Below, piece after piece: positions 18,043 to 47,439 of a stretch of 64,000 nt of DNA; position 1 is the first letter of the stretch, and every line of letters begins with the position of its first letter. Source of the DNA: Microbacteriaceae bacterium (lineage in GTDB: Bacteria; Actinomycetota; Actinomycetes; Actinomycetales; Microbacteriaceae); the NCBI GenBank assembly GCA_025352325.1, contig JANXTR010000021.1, positions 1-64,000 of the forward strand, written 5' to 3'. Below the pieces are notes generated by a model. It ran no database searches and had not been told where the DNA came from. It worked only from the letters and a program-made list of their open reading frames with translations. Position numbers and translations under genes: made by a program.

Positions 18043-18285
18043 CTAGGCCTCGGGCGGCGTGCGCGCGGCGAGCAGCGCGGCCAGGTCGGCCGCAGCGTCG
18101 TGCGCGCTCGCGGCCGCCACGTTCGCCTCGGCGATCGCCTCGATCACCTCGTGGCGCTGGATGCGCACGCCCGAGGGCGCGTCAACGCCGATGCGGATGG
18201 CGTCACCCTTGATCTCGAGAATGGTGATGACGATGTCGTCTCCGACGAGGATCCGCTCGCCACGTTTACGCGTCAGGACCAGCAC
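18043..18285 (-). CDS. csrA: Carbon storage regulator CsrA
   Basis: This 80-residue dimeric RNA-binding protein represses translation by binding ANGGA in leader hairpins. It shows [10 protein letters not shown] (Leu4, Arg6), [24 protein letters not shown] and QRHEV with the RNA-binding Arg44. It is longer than the 61-residue enterobacterial protein; an extended C-terminal helix is known in CsrA proteins controlled by FliW. The start is GTG. It is the last gene of the minus-strand flagellar run, 9 bases after the flhF-like gene. Candidate targets are in the fliC and flgB leaders. Confidence 0.95.
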
Positions 18286-26250: not shown

Positions 26251-26298
26251 GCCCAGCACTATCGGCGGGCCGCCCCGCGCGGTTAGGCGGCGGTCGCG

Positions 26299-35478: not shown

Positions 35479-37109
35479 GCGGGCTGCTTGTCATCCATGA
35501 GCGACCGCAGGTACTCGGCCGTGCGCTGCGGGTCGCTGGCCGAGAGGCGATCAATGCTCGCGCGGACGCGGAAGGCCTCTGGCTGCGCGGCGAGCGCCTC
35601 GAGCGGCAACGGCCCGACCGGCCCGGGAGTCATCGCGCCGAGCCCGCCGCCCGTGATGCCCGGGTACTCGGACAGATCGACACTCGGGTCGGCGTCGGGC
35701 AGCGTGCGCGCGTCGAGCGGCCCGATGTCGATCGGCGACGGCTCGCGGCGCTTCGAGGCGGCCGAGAGGAAGCGGAGCAGCAGGAACAGTCCGAGCAGCA
35801 CGCCGAGCACGGTCAGGCCGGTCGTCACAATCTTCACGATGTTCTGCTGCGTGTCCGCGCCGCTCTGCGACGCGATCGCAGCCTTGGCCTCGGTTGAGCC
35901 CGTCTTGCTGAAGGGCAGCACCTGCACCGCCACCAGGTCGCCCCGCTTGACGTTCACTCCCGCGGCGCCCTCGACGAGCTTCTGGATGCTGGATGCCGAG
36001 ATACCAGAGGTCGCAGCCTTGTTGATCGCGATCGAGATCGTCTGGCGTGTGATCGACCCCGCCGGGATGGTCGTGGTCTCGGTCGTCTGGTCGATCGCGT
36101 TGTTCTTGGTGGTCGAAGTCGTCCAGCTGCTGCTGGCGCCCGGGGTCGCAGCGCCCGTGGGCACCGCGATGTTGTCGGGGCCGAGCACTCCGGTCGCGCC
36201 GGTGGACGATCCACCCGAGCCATTGTCGACGGTCGCGCTGTTCTGCTCGTTGAGGGCCGGGGCGTTCGTCGGGACGGCGTAACTCTGCGTGACGCGCTGG
36301 GCGGAGTCTTTGGACAGATCCGCCGAGACGACGACGGTCGAGTTGCCGGCACCGAGCACCTGGTCGAGCATCGCCTGCACGCTGGCCTGGGTGTGGGCCT
36401 CGTAGGTGGTCGCCGACGCGCCGTCGCTGCTGCCGGCCGCGCCAGCTCCGGACAGCAGGGTGCCGTCCGCCGAGACCACTGAGACGTCGGTGGGCTTCAG
36501 GTTGTTGACCGACGCAGCGACCAGGTGGGTGATCGCCGCGACCTGCGAGGTACCGAGCGCCGCGTTGCCCGAGGTCCGTACGAAGACGGATGCCGTGGTC
36601 GGCACCTGCTCGGAGGTGAAGACCGTCTGGTCGGGAATGGCCAGCTTCACCGACGCGGTCTCGACGCCGTTCATGGCCTCGATCGTGGTGGCGAGCTCGC
36701 CCTGGAGGGCACGCTGGTACGTCGTGGTCTGTTGGAAAGCGGATGCCGTGACGCCGAGGGTGTTCAGCAGCCCGTAGCCGTCGTTACTCAGGCTGGGCAG
36801 CCCGGCCGAGGCGGCTTTCAGGCGTTCGGAGTCGACGTCTTGCTGGGGCACGAGGATCGTGTTGCCGCCGTCGGCGAGCTGATAGGGCACCCCGTCGGCG
36901 TGCAGCAGGGTGGTGATCGATGCCGCGTCGGTCGACGAGAGGCTCGTGAACAGCGGGGAGTAGCTCGGCTGGACGAGCCACGCGGCGAGACCGCCGCCGC
37001 CGACGAGCAGCACCGCGAGTCCGATGATGGCGATGGTGCGCTGCCCGACGGTGAACTCGCGCAGGGTGTGCGTGACGCGATGCAGGGTCGCTAGCAGTGC
37101 CGGGGGCAT
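35475..37109 (-). CDS. fliF: Flagellar MS-ring protein FliF
   Basis: This 544-residue protein has an N-terminal membrane helix (about residues 27-48), the periplasmic-type ring domains (YSPLFTSLSSTDAASITTLL, ILVPQQDVDSERLKAASAGL), a second membrane helix near residue 430 (IVTTGLTVLGVLLGLFLLLR), and the FliG-binding C-terminal tail. It is the assembly platform of the basal body. Its ATG overlaps the fliE stop, and its end overlaps fliG. Confidence 0.96.
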   Translation of the reverse strand: MPPALLATLHRVTHTLREFTVGQRTIAIIGLAVLLVGGGGLAAWLVQPSYSPLFTSLSSTDAASITTLLHADGVPYQLADGGNTILVPQQDVDSERLKAASAGLPSLSNDGYGLLNTLGVTASAFQQTTTYQRALQGELATTIEAMNGVETASVKLAIPDQTVFTSEQVPTTASVFVRTSGNAALGTSQVAAITHLVAASVNNLKPTDVSVVSADGTLLSGAGAAGSSDGASATTYEAHTQASVQAMLDQVLGAGNSTVVVSADLSKDSAQRVTQSYAVPTNAPALNEQNSATVDNGSGGSSTGATGVLGPDNIAVPTGAATPGASSSWTTSTTKNNAIDQTTETTTIPAGSITRQTISIAINKAATSGISASSIQKLVEGAAGVNVKRGDLVAVQVLPFSKTGSTEAKAAIASQSGADTQQNIVKIVTTGLTVLGVLLGLFLLLRFLSAASKRREPSPIDIGPLDARTLPDADPSVDLSEYPGITGGGLGAMTPGPVGPLPLEALAAQPEAFRVRASIDRLSASDPQRTAEYLRSLMDDKQPA

Positions 37110-37426
37110 CAGGCGCTCATGTTCATGATGCTGTTGAAGGCATCGACGGCGCGGTTGCGCACGGACGAGACCAACTGCACCTCGACCTGCGCACGGGTCG
37201 ACGCGATGGTGGCCTGGGCGATGTCCGGCAGGCTGCCGGTTGCGGCCTGGATGTTGAGCTGGTTGGCCGTGGCCTGCGTCGACTGCACCGAGTTGAGGGC
37301 GTTGACCATGGCGGAGCCGAACGAGCTGCCGCCGTCGAGCGACGCGGTCGCCGTCGTCGAGCCGACCGACTGGGTGCTGGTGGGGCCGGCGATCGCGGAG
37401 ATCGACGACACGGACGGGATGGACAT
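37109..37426 (-). CDS. fliE: Flagellar hook-basal body protein FliE
   Basis: This 105-residue protein has the conserved second half (AMVNALNSVQSTQATANQLN, LPDIAQATIASTRAQVEVQL, VSSVRNRAVDAFNSIMNM). It joins the MS ring to the rod and is the first substrate of the export gate. It overlaps flgC and fliF by start/stop sharing. Confidence 0.94.
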   Translation of the reverse strand: MSIPSVSSISAIAGPTSTQSVGSTTATASLDGGSSFGSAMVNALNSVQSTQATANQLNIQAATGSLPDIAQATIASTRAQVEVQLVSSVRNRAVDAFNSIMNMSA

Positions 37427-37821
37427 CAGTTGCTCTTTCCGATGGCGATGGCGGCTTCGTAGGTTGCCTGGGCATCCGTGACGACCTTGGCGTTGGCTTC
37501 GTATGCCCGCTGCGCCATGATCAGTTGGCCCATCTGGCTGCCGAGGTCGATGTCCGGCATCCGGACGTTCCCCTCCGCGTCGGCCAGCGGGTTGCTCGGG
37601 TCGTACTTGATGATCCCGGCCGAGTCGCCGAGGGCCGTGCTCTTCACGAACACGCCCGAGGTTCCGGCGCCGGCCTGCGCCACGACGTAGCGGGCCTGGA
37701 ACGCGGGGCCGCTCGTGGCGGTCGCGGTGTTCATGTTGGCGATGTTGTCTGAGATGGCGTTGAGCCACTGACGATTCACGTCGAGGCCGGATCCGGCGAT
37801 GCCGATGGCGTTCATGCTCAT
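37426..37821 (-). CDS. flgC: Proximal rod protein FlgC
   Basis: This 131-residue protein has the rod N-terminal motif IGIAGSGLDVNRQWLNAISD, NIANMNT, the FlgC middle IIKYDPSNPLADAEGNVRMP, and the C-terminal LIMAQRAYEANAKVVTDAQ. The start follows the flgB stop after two bases. A Met two codons later is an alternative. Confidence 0.95.
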   Translation of the reverse strand: MSMNAIGIAGSGLDVNRQWLNAISDNIANMNTATATSGPAFQARYVVAQAGAGTSGVFVKSTALGDSAGIIKYDPSNPLADAEGNVRMPDIDLGSQMGQLIMAQRAYEANAKVVTDAQATYEAAIAIGKSN

Positions 37822-37823
37822 GA

Positions 37824-38165
37824 TCAGTTGACGTTCAGCGCGGGGAGGATGGACGTCAGCTCCTGGCCGATGGCCTGGCTCGCGAACTTGTACTGGAGCA
37901 CAGTGTTCGCGTTCGTGATGTCTTCGGTGTCGAGGTTGACGTTGTTGCCGTCCAACTGGGTGGGCTCGAGCGACAGTCCGGTCCGGGGGGCGACGACCCC
38001 GCTTCCCGCCTGGACGGATGCCGCGAGCGCGGACTCGAACGAGACGGTCTGTGCGCGGTAGTTCGGCGTGTTGATGTTGGCGATGTTGTTCGCCGTCGCC
38101 GTCTGCCGCGCGGACAGGCCGGCGAGTGCGCTGGAGAGCGCATTGATGGAGACCGATTCGAGCAT
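37824..38165 (-). CDS. flgB: Proximal rod protein FlgB
   Basis: This 113-residue protein has SARQTATANNIANINTPNYR near residue 20 and the C-terminal LQYKFASQAIGQELTSIL. It is the first gene of the basal-body run. Its upstream leader contains two hairpins with identical AGGGAUC loops and a FliA-type promoter. The ATG at 38165 is preferred over a TTG seven codons earlier. Confidence 0.93.
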   Translation of the reverse strand: MLESVSINALSSALAGLSARQTATANNIANINTPNYRAQTVSFESALAASVQAGSGVVAPRTGLSLEPTQLDGNNVNLDTEDITNANTVLQYKFASQAIGQELTSILPALNVN

Positions 38166-38204
38166 CGGGACCTGACTTTCGAGCAAGGTCGGACAAGGAC
38201 GGAC

Positions 38205-38243
38205 GGCCGATCCCTGGCCTCGTGCATCGAGCGATCCCTGCTC
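38205..38243 (-). promoter_or_regulatory. Tandem GGA-loop hairpins in the flgB leader (candidate CsrA sites)
   Basis: On the transcribed strand the leader contains GAGC-AGGGAUC-GCUC (38243-38229) and GGCC-AGGGAUC-GGCC (38219-38205). The two 4-bp stems differ in sequence while the 7-base loops are identical. AGGGAU fits the CsrA core ANGGAU presented in a loop. The first hairpin would begin a few bases after the predicted transcription start. Confidence 0.55.
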
Positions 38244-38252
38244 TACAGAGAG

Positions 38253-38279
38253 TTATCGGTCGCCGTGGCGAGCCGGTAA
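38253..38279 (-). promoter_or_regulatory. FliA-type promoter for flgB operon (candidate)
   Basis: On the minus strand TTACCGGC (38279-38272), an 11-base spacer, and ACCGATAA (38260-38253) fit the sigma-28 layout TAAAGTTT-N11-GCCGATAA, with a near-perfect -10 and a weak -35. It lies about 88 bases before the flgB start. Confidence 0.5.
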
Positions 38280-38337
38280 GCAGTGCGCGCGAGTTTCTTC
38301 TTTGACGTGCGGTCTCGCCGACGACTCAGCCGACGAG

Positions 38338-38655
38338 TCAGCCGACGCGGTCGAGATAGACCGGCTGCGCGTCATCCGATCCGCGGACGCTCTGGAGCAC
38401 CCCCAGGTGCTCCCCGATCAGGCGCTTGGTGGCATGCAGTCGGGTGAACTCCTCCTCGTAGTCGGCGAGGATGCGCCGACCGCGGGGGATGAGACTCTCG
38501 GGGATGGGGCCGACCGGTCCGATGGAGGCACGGATGTCCTCGATAGACCAGATCCCCGTCGTGGTGTTGCCCAGGCCAAATCCGGCGCGTGAGCGTGTGA
38601 GTTGGCGGTCGAGCTCGTCCAGCAGGGCGACCCACCGTCCGATCTGCTCAGCCAA
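38338..38655 (-). CDS. Small protein in the fliT position
   Basis: This 105-residue predicted protein overlaps the end of fliS by eight bases and starts at TTG. It is mainly helical and amphipathic (WVALLDELDRQLTRSRAGF, ILADYEEEFTRLHATKRLIG). FliT, the FliD chaperone, commonly follows fliS and is of this size. The sequence match is not recognisable to me, so the FliT role is inference from order and size. It is followed by short GTCGGCTGA-type repeats and the flgB promoter region. Confidence 0.65.
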   Translation of the reverse strand: MAEQIGRWVALLDELDRQLTRSRAGFGLGNTTTGIWSIEDIRASIGPVGPIPESLIPRGRRILADYEEEFTRLHATKRLIGEHLGVLQSVRGSDDAQPVYLDRVG

Positions 38656-39067
38656 CGGCGGACAGCCGGGCGGGCCCGGGCTCCGAGAGCGAGGCGTCGA
38701 GCGAGGCGTGCCACGCGAGGCGCAGCGGTTCGAGCAGTTCGATGGCTTCGAGCGTCGGCTCGGTGTCGCGCCAGGCGTTGCCGGTGCGCAGGATGCCCAG
38801 CACGTACATGTACAGCGACATCAGGGCCGGCCCACCGCTCCAGAGCTGGGGCTTGAGGGTCGACGCCAGCTCGGTGATGATGTCCTGCGCGTGGATGAGA
38901 TGGCGGCTCGCCGCTGACCAGTCGCCCGAGCCCTGGCTCTTCTCCGCCCAGCGCAGGTCGAGCAGCAGCCGGTCGTAGAGCATGGTCAGCGCCTGCGCGG
39001 GCGAGGCGGAGGTGATCGAGTCGCGCACGTAGGCGGCGCGCGCGGTGGCTCCCGTGGTGATGGTCAT
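38648..39067 (-). CDS. fliS: Flagellin export chaperone FliS
   Basis: This 139-residue helical protein has RAAYVRDSITSASPAQALTM, LYDRLLLDLRWAE and SLYMYVLGILRTGN, the FliS pattern. It keeps flagellin monomeric until export, and in Bacillus FliS also influences the FliW-flagellin balance. The ATG overlaps the fliD stop. Confidence 0.93.
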   Translation of the reverse strand: MTITTGATARAAYVRDSITSASPAQALTMLYDRLLLDLRWAEKSQGSGDWSAASRHLIHAQDIITELASTLKPQLWSGGPALMSLYMYVLGILRTGNAWRDTEPTLEAIELLEPLRLAWHASLDASLSEPGPARLSAVG

Positions 39068-40494
39068 CAGTTGAGTCCGTTACTGGAGATGGTGGTCGGG
39101 AACTGCTGGCTCAGCCAGTTGGACTGGGTCTTGAGGGCGCTGAGCTGGGTCTCCATCGCGGAGAACGCGGATTCGAGGGCGGTCTGGCGGGTCGCGAGCT
39201 CCGTCGTCCAGGCCGAGACCTGGCTTTTCAGTCCGCGAATGTCGCTGTTGAGGCTCGAGACCCTGCTGGTAAGCGCTCCCGAGACCGGGTCAGACTGTCC
39301 GGTCGCCTGGGCGGCCACCGCGGACGAGATGCTCTGCAGCAGCGCGTGGGTTCCGCTCGGATTGGAGGCGAGTGCCGCCTGGAACTTCGCCGCATCGAAG
39401 GTGATCGCGCCATCCTGATGGATGTTGATCCCGATGCTCGCCGGAGAGATGCCGTTCTTCGGCTGGGCGATGGTGTTGAAGAGGGCGTACGCCGAGTTCC
39501 GGATCAGGCTGTCGCCGGTGAACGGTCCTCCGGCGGTCGTGGTGTTACCCGAGGAGTCCGTGCTGGAGCTGACCGCGCTGCTCGTGGCGATCGAGTGCAG
39601 CAGCGTGTCGACGGCCGTGACCAGTGACGACGCGGCGTTGGTGATCGTGGCGGTGTCCTGTGCGATGGTGAGCGAGACCGGCGTCGTCGACTTCTTCGAG
39701 ACGGTCACGCTGACGCCGGGCAGCAGGTTCGAGAAGGTGTTTCCCGTGGAGGTCACGGTCTGCGCGGCGGGCGTGCCTGCCCACAGGGTCACCGCGGCAT
39801 CCGACGCCGTCTGGATGACGGCCGCGCCCGGTTGGGCGAGGAGGTCCGGCGCTGTACCGGCGCTGATGTCACTGGAGGATCCTCCAAAGAAACTGAACGC
39901 ACCCGAAGCGCCAGTGTGGGAGGACGTGAGCTGCAGTCGGTACAGCGCCGCACCGGTAGTCGCATCCTGACCTGATGCGACAGCTATCGCGGAGACTCCC
40001 GCGGAAGACGTGTTGATGGCGGCGGCGATGTCGGCGACGGAGCCGGACGCGGGGTGGATCTCCACCTGCGTGCCGGTGCTGCCGACGATCGTGAAAACGG
40101 GGATGGCGCTGGAGCCGTGCAGCGGGGCGGTGACATTCACCTGAGCCGCGGCGACGGAATCGATCGAGAAGGAGACGGTCCCGGCGCTCGCGTCCGTCGT
40201 GGTGGTCGCGGTGGCGCTGGAATCCGAGCTGGTGGTGGAGTAGACGTTCCAGGCATTGGTCGCGGCGTCGGCGGTGGCCTGGCTCGCGAGGGCGGCGTAG
40301 GAGGTGTTGAGAGCCTGAAGGGCGGTGAGAAGGGTGTTGTCGGCCGTGACCTGCTTCTGCAGGGCGTCCTTCGGCCCGGACTCGGCGGCGATCTGGGCGG
40401 CGACGAGGGCGGAGGTGTTCAGTCCACTGACGACGCCGGCGAGCACGGAGGCGCCTGCGGTGTTCGTCGAGGTCGTCACGTTGGTGGTCGTCAC
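39067..40494 (-). CDS. fliD: Flagellar filament cap protein FliD
   Basis: This 475-residue cap protein has the N-terminal GVVSGLNTSALVAAQIAAES and helical domain, a Ser/Thr-rich middle, and the C-terminal coil (LKSQVSAWTTELATRQTALE, AMETQLSALKTQSNWLSQQF). It folds exported flagellin at the filament tip. The start is GTG after GGAGCGGAAGCG. It lies 100 bases after fliC behind a strong hairpin. Confidence 0.93.
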   Translation of the reverse strand: MTTTNVTTSTNTAGASVLAGVVSGLNTSALVAAQIAAESGPKDALQKQVTADNTLLTALQALNTSYAALASQATADAATNAWNVYSTTSSDSSATATTTTDASAGTVSFSIDSVAAAQVNVTAPLHGSSAIPVFTIVGSTGTQVEIHPASGSVADIAAAINTSSAGVSAIAVASGQDATTGAALYRLQLTSSHTGASGAFSFFGGSSSDISAGTAPDLLAQPGAAVIQTASDAAVTLWAGTPAAQTVTSTGNTFSNLLPGVSVTVSKKSTTPVSLTIAQDTATITNAASSLVTAVDTLLHSIATSSAVSSSTDSSGNTTTAGGPFTGDSLIRNSAYALFNTIAQPKNGISPASIGINIHQDGAITFDAAKFQAALASNPSGTHALLQSISSAVAAQATGQSDPVSGALTSRVSSLNSDIRGLKSQVSAWTTELATRQTALESAFSAMETQLSALKTQSNWLSQQFPTTISSNGLN

Positions 40495-40535
40495 CGCTTC
40501 CGCTCCTTCGTAGTCGGGTGGGCTTGGGGCAGTGC

Positions 40536-40578
40536 CCGGCGGCGGAGATGAGACGGTTCAGGTCTTCTCCGCCGCCGG
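40536..40578 (-). terminator. Terminator-like hairpin after flagellin
   Basis: A perfect 13-bp stem CCGGCGGCGGAGA with its complement (40578-40566 with 40548-40536 on the minus strand) carries an inner AGAC/GTCT stem. It follows fliC by 17 bases and would let fliC be expressed far above fliD. Confidence 0.75.
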
Positions 40579-40594
40579 ACGTTTCGGCGGCGAC

Positions 40595-41437
40595 CTACTG
40601 CAGGAGCTTCAGAACGCTCTGCGGCAGCTGGTTCGCCTGGGCCAGGATGGCCGTGGCGGCCTGGGCCTGGACCTGCTGACCCGTGAAGATCACCATCTGC
40701 TTGGCCATGTCGGTCGACGTGATCTGCGAGCTGGCGGCGTTCAGGTTCTGCGCGGCCACGTTCACGGACGCGATGGCGTTCGTGAATCGGTTCTGCACGG
40801 CACCGAGGGTCGCCTGAGCGGTGGAGATGGAGCTCAGCTGCGTGTCGATCGAGGTGATGGACGCCTGGGCGAGCGCGTTCGTCGAGACGTCGAACTTGCC
40901 GGCGCCGACGGTGAGGGCGGTGGAGACCGCGCCCACGTTGGCGGCGGTCAGGTCGACCGTGATGGTGTTGTCCGCACCGGCGTTGGCGCCGACCTGGAAG
41001 TTCAGCGCCGTGGAGGAACCGTCGAGCAGCTTCGTGCCGTTGTAGTTCGTCGAGGTGCTGAGCCGCGTGAGCTCGTTCGTGATCTGAGTCGCCTCAGTCG
41101 CGATGTCAGTGCGGGACGCCGCGCTGTTCGAGTCGTTCGCGCCCTGAACCGCGAGGTCGCGCAGACGCTGCAGCATGCTCGTCACCTGGGTGAGAGCACC
41201 GCTCGCGGTCTGGACCACGTCGAGGCCGGACTGCGCATTGGTCGCCGCCACGTTCAGGCCGTTGACCTGCGAGGTCAGACCGGTCGAGATGGCGAGGCCG
41301 GCCGCGTTGTCGCCTGCGGACGTGATCGCGTTGCCGCTCGAGAGCTTGGCGATGGACGAGGTGAGCTTGTCCTGCGCGTTGGTCAGGTTCTGGTAGGCGT
41401 TGAGTGCTGCGATGTTGTTGGTGATGCTGAGTGCCAT
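40595..41437 (-). CDS. fliC: Flagellin FliC
   Basis: This 280-residue flagellin has conserved helical ends: N-terminal LSITNNIAALNAYQNLTNAQ and LSSGNAITSAGDNAAGLAIS, and C-terminal NRFTNAIASVNVAAQNLNAA and QVQAQAATAILAQANQLPQS. The variable centre is short, typical of Gram-positive flagellins. A strong ribosome site GGAGGAAC precedes the ATG and could be covered by CsrA. It has its own FliA-type promoter and a strong terminator. Confidence 0.97.
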   Translation of the reverse strand: MALSITNNIAALNAYQNLTNAQDKLTSSIAKLSSGNAITSAGDNAAGLAISTGLTSQVNGLNVAATNAQSGLDVVQTASGALTQVTSMLQRLRDLAVQGANDSNSAASRTDIATEATQITNELTRLSTSTNYNGTKLLDGSSTALNFQVGANAGADNTITVDLTAANVGAVSTALTVGAGKFDVSTNALAQASITSIDTQLSSISTAQATLGAVQNRFTNAIASVNVAAQNLNAASSQITSTDMAKQMVIFTGQQVQAQAATAILAQANQLPQSVLKLLQ

Positions 41438-41440
41438 TTT

Positions 41441-41486
41441 GTTCCTCCATGATTTGGCGTTGGTACGCCAGCCCATCCGTGGGCTG
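41441..41486 (-). promoter_or_regulatory. fliC leader with CsrA-type sites (GGA-loop hairpin plus ribosome site)
   Basis: The leader folds into CAGCCCA-CGGA-UGGGCUG (41486-41469), a 7-bp stem whose loop and closing pair read ACGGAU, the CsrA recognition core. About 25 bases later the ribosome site AUGGAGGAACA (41450-41440) contains further GGA cores. This two-site layout matches the Bacillus hag leader, where CsrA blocks flagellin translation and FliW relieves it. The RNA fold is read by eye. Confidence 0.65.
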
Positions 41487-41496
41487 ACATCGATGA

Positions 41497-41523
41497 CTTT
41501 CGGCGGGATGCGGAGTTGCGTTA
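41497..41523 (-). promoter_or_regulatory. FliA-type promoter of flagellin (candidate)
   Basis: On the minus strand TAACGCAA (41523-41516), an 11-base spacer and GCCGAAAG (41504-41497) fit the sigma-28 consensus in order and spacing. The predicted start near 41490 makes a leader of about 53 bases that begins just before the GGA-loop hairpin. Confidence 0.65.
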
Positions 41524-41553
41524 GCAGTTCGCCGAAAGAATTTTTCTGCGGGG

Positions 41554-42381
41554 CTACGAGGCCGCCGATTCCCAGATCGCAAGGGGCTGCGCGGGGCGCA
41601 CTAGGCTCGCGATTCCGAGGCCGGCGGTCTGCGCGAGACGCGCGAGGTAGGCGCTGCGGCGTGACTCGGCGATGCGCGAGTGACGCGCCGCACTCACCTC
41701 GCCGTCGTCGGCGAAATGCGTCTCGAGGCCGTCGCGCAGCAGGCGGATCCCCTCGGAACGCTGCTGCGAGACGGCGGAGTGCGTGGCGCCGAGCTCCTCG
41801 GCGAGTTCCTTGACGGTCCGGTCGTTGAAGTAGATCTCGGTGACGATGTAGCGCATCTTCTCGGGGAGCGCGTCGACGGCGGCGCGGACGATGCCGGCGC
41901 GCTCCGCGGTGACGAGCGAATCCTCGGGCGTCGACATCTCGGCGGCGAGCTGGTCGCCGATGGTCTCGTCGAGGGAGCTGACGGAGCGCGTGGCATCCGA
42001 GAGCGCCTCGGTAGCGGTCGCCCGGTCCACTCCGAGTGCCAAGGCGACCTCGTCGACGGTCGCGTCGCGTCCGAGGGCGGCGGTGAGCGTCTCCTTGACC
42101 TGCAGCACCTCGCGGATGCGGTGGCGCACCGTGCGGGTCGCCCAGTCGGACGATCGCATCTCGTCGGCGAACGCGCCGAGCACGCGGCGGCGGGCGTAAG
42201 CGCCGAAGGGCACGCCGAGTGTGGGGTCGAAGGCCTCGGCCGCGGTGATCAGGGCGACGGCACCCGCCGAGGCGAGGTCGTCGCGCGACAGGTGGGTCGC
42301 GCGCCCCCAGACCTCGGACACGAGGTAGCCGACGAGGGGCAGGTTTTCTACCACGAGCGCGTTTCGAGCGGTGCGGTCCAT
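41554..42381 (-). CDS. fliA: Flagellar RNA polymerase sigma factor (FliA/WhiG type)
   Basis: This 275-residue sigma-28-type factor has region 2 (LVGYLVSEVWGRATHLSRDD, FGAYARRRVLGAFADEMRSS), region 3 (ALGRDATVDEVALALGVDRA) and region 4 (LPEKMRYIVTEIYFNDRTVK, ELGATHSAVSQQRSEG). About 45 extra residues follow region 4. It should transcribe flagellar genes from the TAACG-N14-RCCGAWRG type sites upstream of fliC, flgN and flgB. No flgM anti-sigma gene is seen in the window. The ATG follows CAGGGAG. Confidence 0.92.
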   Translation of the reverse strand: MDRTARNALVVENLPLVGYLVSEVWGRATHLSRDDLASAGAVALITAAEAFDPTLGVPFGAYARRRVLGAFADEMRSSDWATRTVRHRIREVLQVKETLTAALGRDATVDEVALALGVDRATATEALSDATRSVSSLDETIGDQLAAEMSTPEDSLVTAERAGIVRAAVDALPEKMRYIVTEIYFNDRTVKELAEELGATHSAVSQQRSEGIRLLRDGLETHFADDGEVSAARHSRIAESRRSAYLARLAQTAGLGIASLVRPAQPLAIWESAAS

Positions 42382-42405
42382 CACGAATCTCCCTGATCAA
42401 GAGAA

Positions 42406-42421
42406 CACAGAGGATTCTGTG
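42406..42421. promoter_or_regulatory. Short palindrome upstream of fliA
   Basis: CACAGA and TCTGTG flank GGAT, a perfect 6-bp inverted repeat 25 bases before the fliA start. It could be an operator or a 5' leader hairpin; no regulator can be named. Confidence 0.35.
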
Positions 42422-42482
42422 CTCAGACATTCGGGATGGATGTCGTGGTGTGGCGTGACCGCGTCGAGCCATGTCGAGCTCA

Positions 42483-42662
42483 GTGCGGGGATGCTCCGGG
42501 GCTGGAGCAGTCAATCGGTGGTGCGGGTGTGCTCCGGGGTTGGAGCGGTGATGAAGCTGCTTGGGTAAGCGGCCGACCGGGTGAGCGGCTGACTCCCCAG
42601 ATACTGGCCGATGGATCCGCACGCCCTGTAGACCCCAGAACAGGAGCCCCCTGTTCTGGGTC
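42483..42662. repeat. Direct repeats and strong hairpin in the 470-base fliA-flgN divergent region
   Basis: Two 31-base imperfect direct repeats (42483-42513 and 42521-42551, period 38) each contain GCTCCGGGG(C/T)TGGAGC, itself an inverted repeat. Farther on, GACCCCAGAACAG and CTGTTCTGGGTC (42631-42662) form a 12-bp stem with one bulge and a 7-base loop. The region holds no gene. It looks like a regulatory hub for the top of the flagellar hierarchy. Confidence 0.6.
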
Positions 42663-44765: not shown

Positions 44766-45647
44766 ATGATCACGCGCGTGACGGATCAGATGATCCTCGC
44801 CCATTCGCAGGCGAATCTGCAGACCCAGCTCCAGCAGCTGTCCACTCTGCAGGACCAGGCCTCCAGTCAGAAGGCGATCAGCAAGCCCTCCGACAACCCC
44901 ACGGGGATCGCCATGTCGCTGGCCCTCAAGCGGCAGCAGGCGGCGACCGCCCAGTACGCCGGGAACGCCCAGGACGCTGACAACTGGCTCACGGCCGTCA
45001 ACGGCGCCCTGAACTCCTCGATCACCTCATTGCAGAGCGTGCGATCGCTCGTGGTGGGAACCGGCGATGCCACCCTGTCGCCGACCGCGAAGGCCTCGAT
45101 CGTGACCCAGCTGACGGGTCTCAAGGCCGCGCTGCTCGGGCAGGCGAACATGAGCTATCTCGGTCGGCCGGTCTTCGCTGGCAACTCCGACGCCGGAGCC
45201 GCCTTCGATACGAGCTACAGCTACACAGGAACTGCGGGAGCCACCGTCTCCCGCTCCATCAGCAGCACCGCGACCGTCTCGGTCAGTGGCGACGGGGCGG
45301 CGGTGTACGGCACGGGTGCCGGATCGGTGTTCTCGCTGATCGACTCCATCGTGAGCGGGATCCAGTCGGGCACCGACGTCACGTCCCAGCTCACCGCGAT
45401 CGACTCGCGCATCTCGGCCGTCACGACCCAGCAATCCGTGGTCGCGGCGAACTTCAATCAGGTTCAACGGGGGCAGGCGACTTTGACCGCACAGGCAGCA
45501 TCTCTCACCACCCAGCGCTCCGCTGTGGACGGGGTGGACCTCACGAAGACGCTGGTCGAGCTCTCGGCCCAGCAGAACGCCTACCAGGCCGCGCTCGGAG
45601 TCACGAGCAAGGCGCTGCAACCCACGCTGATGTCGTTCCTCCGATGA
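44766..45647 (+). CDS. flgL: Hook-filament junction protein FlgL
   Basis: This 293-residue flagellin-like protein has ITRVTDQMILAHSQANLQTQ, KAISKPSDNPTGIAMSLALK and the C-terminal LVELSAQQNAYQAALGVTSK. It forms the second hook-filament junction layer. Its stop overlaps the fliW start (ATGA), linking the junction proteins with the FliW regulator. Confidence 0.95.
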   Translation: MITRVTDQMILAHSQANLQTQLQQLSTLQDQASSQKAISKPSDNPTGIAMSLALKRQQAATAQYAGNAQDADNWLTAVNGALNSSITSLQSVRSLVVGTGDATLSPTAKASIVTQLTGLKAALLGQANMSYLGRPVFAGNSDAGAAFDTSYSYTGTAGATVSRSISSTATVSVSGDGAAVYGTGAGSVFSLIDSIVSGIQSGTDVTSQLTAIDSRISAVTTQQSVVAANFNQVQRGQATLTAQAASLTTQRSAVDGVDLTKTLVELSAQQNAYQAALGVTSKALQPTLMSFLR

Positions 45648-46021
45648 GCGCCGTCACCTTCGTCGAATCCCCTCCGGGGCTCGCTCCGCTGCTCGAGTTC
45701 ACGCTCGACGAGGTGGAGGGCGCGCACGGTCTGCACACCCTCCGCTCCTCGGACGCGCCCGACATCCGGCTGTTCATGCTCGACGTGCCCGTCTACCTGC
45801 CCTGGTACGAGCCGGCATTCGACGAGGAGAACTACCTGTCGGTCGGTGCGAACGCGGACGGCACGGACGTGCTCGTCGTCGCGACCATCTCGGACGGCTC
45901 CCCGGTCGTGAACCTGATGGCACCAGTGCTGGTCAACCGCACCACGGGCGCCGCGCGTCAGGTGATCCTCGGCGACGAGTGGCCGCTGGCCGCGAGCCTG
46001 GCGCAGCCCGGTGCAGCGTAG
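45644..46021 (+). CDS. fliW: Flagellar assembly factor FliW
   Basis: This 125-residue beta-barrel protein antagonises CsrA until sequestered by flagellin. Family features are seen as GLAPLLEFTLDEVEGAHGLH, RLFMLDVPVYLPWYEPAFDE and VNLMAPVLVNRTTGAARQVI. Its partners csrA and fliC are both in this cluster. It overlaps flgL and ends 26 bases from the convergent Lrp gene. Confidence 0.93.
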   Translation: MSAVTFVESPPGLAPLLEFTLDEVEGAHGLHTLRSSDAPDIRLFMLDVPVYLPWYEPAFDEENYLSVGANADGTDVLVVATISDGSPVVNLMAPVLVNRTTGAARQVILGDEWPLAASLAQPGAA

Positions 46022-46505: not shown

Positions 46506-46523
46506 TTTCTTGCGTGAGCGAAA
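46506..46523. promoter_or_regulatory. Candidate Lrp-type operator
   Basis: TTTCTTGCGTGAGCGAAA is an imperfect palindrome 20 bases before the lrp start on one side and about 75 bases before the argZ-like gene on the other. Assignment to the Lrp protein is positional. Confidence 0.35.
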
Positions 46524-46596
46524 CCGATCACGCCGATTCGGTGCGCGTGACGCTCTGAACGTCCGGATGTGTGCGTGTCACACTGAAGGAATGACG

Positions 46597-47439
46597 ATGA
46601 CAGACAACTCAGCCACCGCCCCCGAGCGCGTTGCCACCCACCGCACCGTGCTGATGTGCCGGCCGAACCACTTCACCGTCAGCTACCGGATCAACCCCTG
46701 GATGCACCCCGACGTTCCCACCGACACGAGCCTCGCGGTGCGCCAATGGGAGACCCTCTACGCGAAGTACCTCGAGCTCGGTTTCGACGTCGAGCTGATC
46801 GACGGCATCGACGGCCTGCCTGACATGGTCTACGCGGCCAACGGCGGCTACGTGCTCGACGGCGTCGCGTACGGCGCCAAGTTCCAGTACCCGGAGCGTC
46901 AGCCCGAGGGCCCCGCCTACATGGAGTGGTTCGCCGCGAACGGCTTCACTGTCGCCGAGCCGGTCTCGACCAACGAGGGCGAAGGCGACTTCCTGCTCGT
47001 CGGCGACACCATCTACGCGGGCACCGGATTCCGCAGCGACACCGCGAGCCACGACGAGCTGCGCAAGCTCTACGACCGCGAGGTCGTCACGCTGAAGCTC
47101 GTCGACCCGGCGTTTTACCACCTGGACACCGCCTTCGCCGTACTCGACTCGAATGGCGGCCCCGGCTCCGTCGCCTTCCTCCCGAAGGCCTTCGACGCGG
47201 CATCGCTCGGCATCCTCGACGAGCGCTTCCCCGACGCCATCCACGTCAACGACGTCGACGCCGCGGTACTCGGGCTCAACTCCTTCAGCGACGGCAAGAA
47301 CGTGATCATCGCGCAGCGTGCCACCGACTTCGAGCGCCAGCTGACCGAGCGCGGCTTCGCCCCGCACGGTGTCGACCTCAGCGAGCTGCTGCTCGGCGGC
47401 GGCGGCGTGAAGTGCTGCACCTTGGAGCTGCGGCGATGA
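46597..47439 (+). CDS. Arginine dihydrolase-like / DDAH-superfamily amidinotransferase-fold hydrolase
   Basis: The 280-residue protein has the guanidine-modifying fold with His175 (FYHLDTAF) and the C-terminal Cys273/Cys274 (GGGGVKCCTLEL). It is often named dimethylargininase, but VLMCRPNHF, the INPWM block (Asn33) and LPDMVYAANGG (Asn82) closely resemble the ArgZ/AgrE catalytic domain as I recall it, which turns arginine into ornithine, CO2 and ammonia. The partner gene rocD, overlapping its stop, uses ornithine, which supports that reading. The second ATG is chosen, six bases after GAAGGA. Confidence 0.8.
   Translation: MTDNSATAPERVATHRTVLMCRPNHFTVSYRINPWMHPDVPTDTSLAVRQWETLYAKYLELGFDVELIDGIDGLPDMVYAANGGYVLDGVAYGAKFQYPERQPEGPAYMEWFAANGFTVAEPVSTNEGEGDFLLVGDTIYAGTGFRSDTASHDELRKLYDREVVTLKLVDPAFYHLDTAFAVLDSNGGPGSVAFLPKAFDAASLGILDERFPDAIHVNDVDAAVLGLNSFSDGKNVIIAQRATDFERQLTERGFAPHGVDLSELLLGGGGVKCCTLELRR

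Follow-up and report, generated by a model that had tools for sequence, protein, structure and literature searches.

In a 64,000-nucleotide (nt) stretch of Microbacteriaceae DNA (contig JANXTR010000021.1, positions 1 to 64,000; hereafter, the window), the leaders of the flagellin gene fliC and of flgB, the first gene of the basal-body operon, are probably targets of CsrA under the control of FliW, with fliC repressed and flgB activated. The two halves of this reading, which was built on sequence comparison, are held with different confidence. At fliC, a CsrA dimer very likely bridges a leader hairpin and the Shine-Dalgarno sequence and blocks translation, by analogy with Bacillus hag. At flgB, activation of the basal-body operon by bound CsrA is, on balance, the outcome that we expect. 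The window contains a flagellar cluster of approximately 69% G+C from a Microbacteriaceae-like actinobacterium, and the genome encodes both csrA and fliW, as a hag-type switch requires.

The original prediction, made from this DNA alone, had described three leader hairpins with ANGGAU cores downstream of FliA-type promoters. All three were recovered, and we add an overlooked fourth candidate, ATGGAGGA, which lies at the Shine-Dalgarno of fliC. Both transcription units lie on the minus strand. The FliA-type promoter predicted for the basal-body operon (TTAC-N16-CCGATA, 38254..38279, read from 38279 to 38254) was located by pattern matching and agrees with the aligned promoters of 61 flgB genes. 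It is followed by hairpin 1 (GAGC-AGGGATC-GCTC, 38229..38243) and hairpin 2 (GGCC-AGGGATC-GGCC, 38205..38219), both predicted CsrA sites on the basis of sequence and family comparison, and then by flgB (37824..38165, ATG at 38165), which was assigned as a rod protein by the Pfam Flg_bb_rod domain and by its relatives. The promoter predicted for fliC (TAAC...GCCGAAAG, 41497..41523) was read in the sequence and aligned with those of relatives. Downstream of it are the hairpin CAGCCCA-CGGA-TGGGCTG (41469..41486), predicted CsrA site 1 and similar to BS1 of hag, whose stem can be extended to 11 bp and which folds strongly (z −2.64), and ATGGAGGA (41443..41450), an ANGGA core at the Shine-Dalgarno and predicted CsrA site 2, similar to BS2 of hag. 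The fliC gene itself (40595..41437, ATG at 41437) carries the Pfam Flagellin_N/C domains.

The conservation of the flgB hairpins was determined in a family sample of 249 genomes, from which the csrA-positive clusters were fetched and 75 flgB leaders, including that of the window, were recovered; genome G177 was left out because of its weak match (E 2.9e-5). Both hairpins were present in 71/75 leaders under a strict rule and in 72/75 under a slightly looser one, vs. a mean of 0.04 and a maximum of 1 in shuffled leaders. When 7-base loops were located by their stems alone, they read A-N-G-G-A in 66/66 cases at hairpin 1 and in 70/70 at hairpin 2, the remainder of the 75 leaders having, in each case, other stems or loop lengths. 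The free N was C, G or T at hairpin 1 and any base at hairpin 2. The loops thus carry the ANGGA signature, free position included; an ANGGAN hexaloop hairpin is the high-affinity target of the CsrA homologue RsmE (PMC7652899, in part), which speaks for the CsrA reading. Among the leaders, 58 have both hairpins and a recognised promoter; in these, the first ANGGA begins 13–16 nt past the −10 element, the transcription start being predicted, and the two cores are spaced by 21–26 nt (A to A), mostly by 22–24. This places both predicted CsrA sites close to the presumed 5′ terminus of the mRNA, and since the cores of the family sit 34–89 nt 5′ of the start codon, the ribosome site is not covered.

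Family stems are near-constant, with scattered compensatory changes at hairpin 1 (GAGC/GCTC to GGGC/GCCC, GGAC/GTCC or GGCA/TGCC). Across the class, the hairpin 2 stem changes from GGCC/GGCC to CGCC/GGCG, GCCG/CGGC or GCCA/TGGC, and the loop remains ANGGA. The alignment of relatives keeping csrA and fliW, proposed at the outset as a check, thus returned fixed loops with compensatory stem changes in some lineages. The original argument that two different stems present the same loop holds within one leader only, because the stem of each site is itself mostly conserved across relatives. This stem conservation could also be explained if a transcription factor bound the repeats as operators in the DNA or as features of the core promoter: both stems (GAGC/GCTC and GGCC/GGCC) are palindromic, hardly vary within the family and keep an almost constant distance to the −10 element. 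However, compensatory stem changes around a fixed ANGGA loop are better explained by an RNA whose loop is read than by a palindrome in DNA, the asymmetric loop is always found in the same orientation, other FliA-type promoters mostly lack the hairpins, and the same core recurs at the fliC Shine-Dalgarno. We consider the operator explanation highly improbable.

The association of the hairpins with particular transcripts was clear among the FliA-type promoters of the fetched clusters. At least one hairpin followed the promoter in 61/61 cases at flgB and in 40/54 at fliC (strict rule), in comparison with 0/37 at fliM, 1/31 at flgN and 3/21 at flbD-motA, so that the cassette goes with certain transcripts and not with the promoter as such. 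As a separate observation, the FliA-type promoters of fliM and flgN (window 26260-26285, minus strand; L032-L151) are so near to, or overlap, the assumed starts of the open reading frames (ORFs) that the mRNAs would be leaderless or nearly leaderless, unlike those of flgB and fliC; this was seen in five rows per gene among the matches listed, with ORF starts assumed from the window.

The two-hairpin pattern was also searched over 76 whole csrA-positive genomes, where it gave 67 matches in 62 genomes, 62 of them at flgB. The remaining five lie approximately 4–6 kb downstream of flgB in the same cluster, after a second FliA-type promoter (L279-L283). In four genomes of one genus the extra cassette precedes fliH, and in G069 it stands directly after fliI and before a gene in the fliJ position, identified by place only. 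A second start of the operon thus comes with its own copy of the cassette. The strict pattern missed 14/76 genomes, comprising twelve with variant stems or loops, G184 (L070), which lacks hairpin 1, and G177, which was not recovered. A reversed-pattern control gave no match in the 76 csrA-positive genomes. Likewise, the pattern itself gave 0 matches in 80 family genomes without a csrA match (a subset of 173 such genomes), a result which shows merely a low background because these genomes are probably non-flagellated.

The genes csrA and fliW co-occur. Within the family sample, csrA was found in 76/249 genomes and fliW in 75/249, the odd one out being G208, and all 76 csrA-positive genomes gave FlgB-type and flagellin matches. 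In a phylum set of 396 genomes, 73 had a csrA match, 60 a flagellin match and 58 had both. The only two of the 60 flagellin-bearing genomes without a csrA match, G445 and G602, were considered as a csrA-less flagellate control and found not to be informative: a FlgB match was not obtained in G602, and in G445 the pair of sites was not seen in the leader (L198), where flgB seems to follow another gene closely. In the window, csrA (18043..18285, minus strand) was assigned by Pfam CsrA and by alignment to solved CsrA/RsmE chains. The core of the protein aligns with these and retains Leu4 and Arg44, which we take to be the main RNA contacts. The fliW gene (45644..46021, plus strand) has the Pfam FliW domain and a weak match to a solved FliW (5dmb, E 0.0017). 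Loop conservation and the co-occurrence of csrA and fliW support the original proposal that the flgB and fliC leaders are candidate CsrA targets.

The fliC leader was analyzed in 78 family sequences, copies being skipped if the match began beyond the first 10 residues or identity was under 42%. An ANGGA hairpin was present in 77/78 leaders when one stem mismatch was allowed and in 59/78 without mismatch, and ANGGA occurred at the Shine-Dalgarno in 76/78, vs. 60/170 other GGAGG-type starts (40 of the same loci). In other families, orders and classes, ANGGA stood just 5′ of the start in 21/21 flagellin leaders, with a hairpin in many of them, as judged by eye. Tandem flagellin genes were encountered at L091 (G192), where four leaders were read and each showed an ANGGA hairpin (mismatch allowed) and a Shine-Dalgarno ANGGA. 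A leader with an ANGGA hairpin and a Shine-Dalgarno ANGGA, and a cluster with csrA and fliW, are what is found with Bacillus subtilis hag and Campylobacter jejuni flaA; what differs here is that the basal-body operon is preceded by another pair of sites, conserved to the same degree.

Outside the family, 78 further flgB loci were read across the phylum, four of which were re-fetches of the window or of family loci. Dual hairpins were found in 21 of the 26 leaders from other families of the same class (shuffle maximum 1). In the 48 leaders from other classes, dual hairpins occurred in 13, vs. a shuffle mean of 0.12 and maximum of 1, and two ANGGA cores 15–35 nt apart in 22, vs. a shuffle mean of 3.25. 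Many of these 48 flgB genes appear not to be first in their operon, so these fractions may be lower bounds. By eye, dual hairpins without a terminator were also seen in Arthrobacter ruber (L297) and in a Pseudonocardiales metagenome-assembled genome (MAG; L293).

In the other classes, an intrinsic terminator shortly before flgB often contains the second ANGGA in its 5′ arm. A finder blind to ANGGA called 20 terminators in 19/48 of these leaders, and in 15 of the 20 the GGA of an ANGGA pairs within the 5′ arm. With the cut-off set at −14 kcal/mol, 15/19 flgB-leader terminators were of this kind, vs. 4/288 controls. The control consisted of approximately 396 kb from 14 of the same genomes, read on both strands, in which 299 terminators passed this cut-off. 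Fifteen of these were of the ANGGA-arm kind, ten being flgB attenuators and one the antisense reading of another, which leaves 4/288; at a weaker cut-off of −9, the control total was 25/630, flgB attenuators included. Three terminators (L199, L211 and the second of L230) have no ANGGA at the arm; setting them aside left 17 attenuators. A competing small hairpin showing ANGGA in its loop was present in 13/17, whereas 2000 shuffling trials gave 1.07 on average and at most 5. As the shuffle sets one chosen site per leader against the best one observed, it is slightly biased in favour of the result. Another ANGGA was located 14–45 nt upstream in 14/17. A search of named records yielded four further leaders with the attenuator, two from Nitriliruptoraceae, one from Acidimicrobiales and one from another Actinomycetota MAG; the leader of an Egibacter MAG has it as well but is identical to L197 and hence not new. 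In the other 75/80 loci of that search, which are largely from other phyla, the arrangement was not seen.

The layout of these attenuators suggests how binding could be converted into activation. In other actinobacterial classes, the second ANGGA would alternate between a small hairpin that presents it in the loop and the intrinsic terminator; a protein bound at ANGGA would favour read-through, and CsrA would hence act as an antiterminator. The sequence support for activation by antitermination is strong outside the class of the window and weak inside it. CsrA also acts on transcription elongation in a leader at pgaA, as described in part of a review (PMC7652899), where, in contrast, it promotes Rho-dependent termination, while here it would prevent an intrinsic terminator.

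In the class of the window, activation would proceed via protection of the transcript, as at flhDC, or by another route, and protection of the 5′ end is our preferred guess. Activation there rests on analogy, because no terminator follows the hairpins. The CsrA-activated flhDC mRNA of Escherichia coli is comparable in that this flagellar message, too, carries a pair of CsrA sites close to its 5′ end (PMC7652899, in part); unlike flhDC, the target here is a structural basal-body operon with a FliA-type promoter and not a master regulator, and protection from RNase is hypothetical. Activation, in which a CsrA dimer would bridge the two hairpin loops, is suggested both by where the flgB sites lie, close to the predicted 5′ end and clear of the ribosome site, and by the attenuators found in other classes.

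Several observations weigh against this account of flgB. The minimum-energy fold of the 90-nt flgB leader of the window is without both 4-bp hairpins (z −0.29), whereas the centroid fold of its 48-nt core does contain both. An intrinsic terminator after the hairpins was found neither in this leader (two finders) nor in its class, and across the family the alternative hairpin pairing the GGA of site 2 shows no conservation (mean z about 0); on these grounds, a terminator in the flgB leader of the window was rejected. The flgB loops are mostly of 7 nt, not the 6 of the RsmE hexaloop, and extra loop bases can reduce affinity (PMC7652899, in part). Dual hairpins are missing from 5/26 leaders of the same class, two ANGGA cores within 120 nt are missing from 26 of the 48 leaders of other classes, and the terminator finder was negative in 29/48 of the latter. 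Finally, nearly all loops of the dual-hairpin flgB leaders satisfy the A1/G4 rule of the targets of ANTAR-type antiterminators.

This last point brings in a serious rival, that a dimeric ANTAR response regulator, and not CsrA, reads the two flgB loops. The published ANTAR element is a tandem of hairpins whose loops carry A1 and G4, the second hairpin alternating with a terminator (PMC3369931, in part), and as with the EutV/NasR systems, the second hairpin is exclusive with an intrinsic terminator in 13/17 attenuators from other classes of Actinobacteria. That exclusion is, however, not seen in the window and its class, and loop positions 3 (G) and 5 (A) are as invariant here as positions 1 and 4. 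Moreover, GGA is retained in leaders whose first hairpin departs from the A1-G4 spacing (AGGATC in L032 and L033; also L254 and L257), fliC has the same core in a single hairpin and at the Shine-Dalgarno in a CsrA-like manner, and csrA and fliW lie in the cluster of the window and co-occur across the family. Judged by the leaders and by the presence of csrA and fliW, an ANTAR regulator is regarded as unlikely, and CsrA as the probable reader of both leaders.

Some individual structures in the flgB leaders were noted in addition. A 9-bp hairpin pairing the GGA of site 2 is present in the window and in L032, without a U-run, and L033 has a weak hairpin of this type (−7.7 kcal/mol) with 4 T within a 10-base tail. 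In L092, L099, L102, L037 and L047, the second ANGGA can pair with the start-codon region (e.g., CACGGA/TCCGTG). In these few relatives, such pairing is a possible start-site occlusion that CsrA could open, and it is not family-wide. Kissing loops between the two GATC-containing heptaloops were considered by eye and dropped, because, of the 66 first loops, 16 have T as their last base and four read GAC. Rfam covariance models gave no match in window positions 37000-42500 nor in six loci.

If CsrA does bind both leaders, it might repress flgB as well, restraining the whole flagellum until FliW is free. We rate this as the likeliest of the alternatives, though it is clearly less probable than activation. 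Repression is the usual outcome of CsrA binding (PMC4894983, in part), fliC is clearly of repression design, and site 2 is able to pair with the start-codon region in some relatives. On the other side, the flgB cores, given their distance from the start codon, are off the ribosome site, and the ANGGA of other classes is placed where binding would prevent the terminator.

The flgB leader might instead serve mainly as a CsrA sponge, two strong sites titrating CsrA from fliC while the basal body is made. Two loop sites resemble sponge RNAs, and this idea has a further precedent in the leader of the C. jejuni flaA mRNA, which itself antagonises CsrA (PMC4894983, in part). However, the overlap with terminators in other classes predicts an effect in cis, and the five genomes with a second operon start carry the cassette in cis there too, which makes a role as sponge quite unlikely.

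On its minus strand, the window carries flgB, fliC, fliD, fliS, a sigma factor, motA/B, flgE-type genes and csrA; its plus strand carries flgN, flgK, a second flagellin-like gene (flgL-type by place) and fliW. The sigma factor gene (41554..42384, minus strand), with Pfam Sigma70 regions 2, 3 and 4, is of flagellar type, fliA-like by place, and directly upstream of fliC. A dimethylarginine dimethylhydrolase/arginine-deiminase-like gene adjoins fliW (46510-47439, plus strand).

Flagellin export frees FliW. The sequences show the predicted CsrA sites at both leaders, their conservation, their specificity and the terminator overlap; that CsrA binds, in which direction it acts, and that FliW is linked to it at flgB, is what we infer. 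Before hook completion, flagellin would hold FliW, CsrA would be free, and fliC would be off and flgB on. After hook completion, FliW would hold CsrA, and both leaders would flip, so the flgB and fliC leaders would respond oppositely. For Bacillus hag, free FliW is known to antagonise CsrA (PMC7652899, in part).

The original prediction had considered control of a basal-body operon by CsrA as not yet described. In C. jejuni, co-immunoprecipitation with CsrA enriched flgI up to 170-fold, but flgB barely (1.6-fold; PMC4894983, in part), and CsrA contact with hook or basal-body mRNAs is hence not wholly new. In the open literature, as far as titles and abstract openings among the matches listed go, neither CsrA control of actinobacterial flgB nor CsrA action on an intrinsic terminator was described. 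A CsrA-controlled intrinsic terminator, if true, would be an added mode of action, one not found in the CsrA review PMC7652899 (in part).

A survey of actinobacterial flagella includes CsrA and FliW among the proteins surveyed and reports later classes without FlgM (PMC10746217, in part). The terminator-embedded site suggests that, in deep lineages, CsrA may switch the flagellar base on while the filament is held off. More broadly, and tentatively, as we hold it somewhat short of an even prospect, CsrA may be an antiterminator in Actinobacteria: in deep lineages it would hold open the ANGGA hairpin that excludes the flgB terminator, and phylum-wide CsrA-FliW would flip basal body and filament oppositely, replacing a FlgM-type checkpoint wherever FliA-type promoters drive the two genes alike. 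The known role of CsrA-FliW is that of a brake on flagellin; should it also turn on the basal-body operon, a single pair of proteins would order flagellum assembly after transcription initiation.

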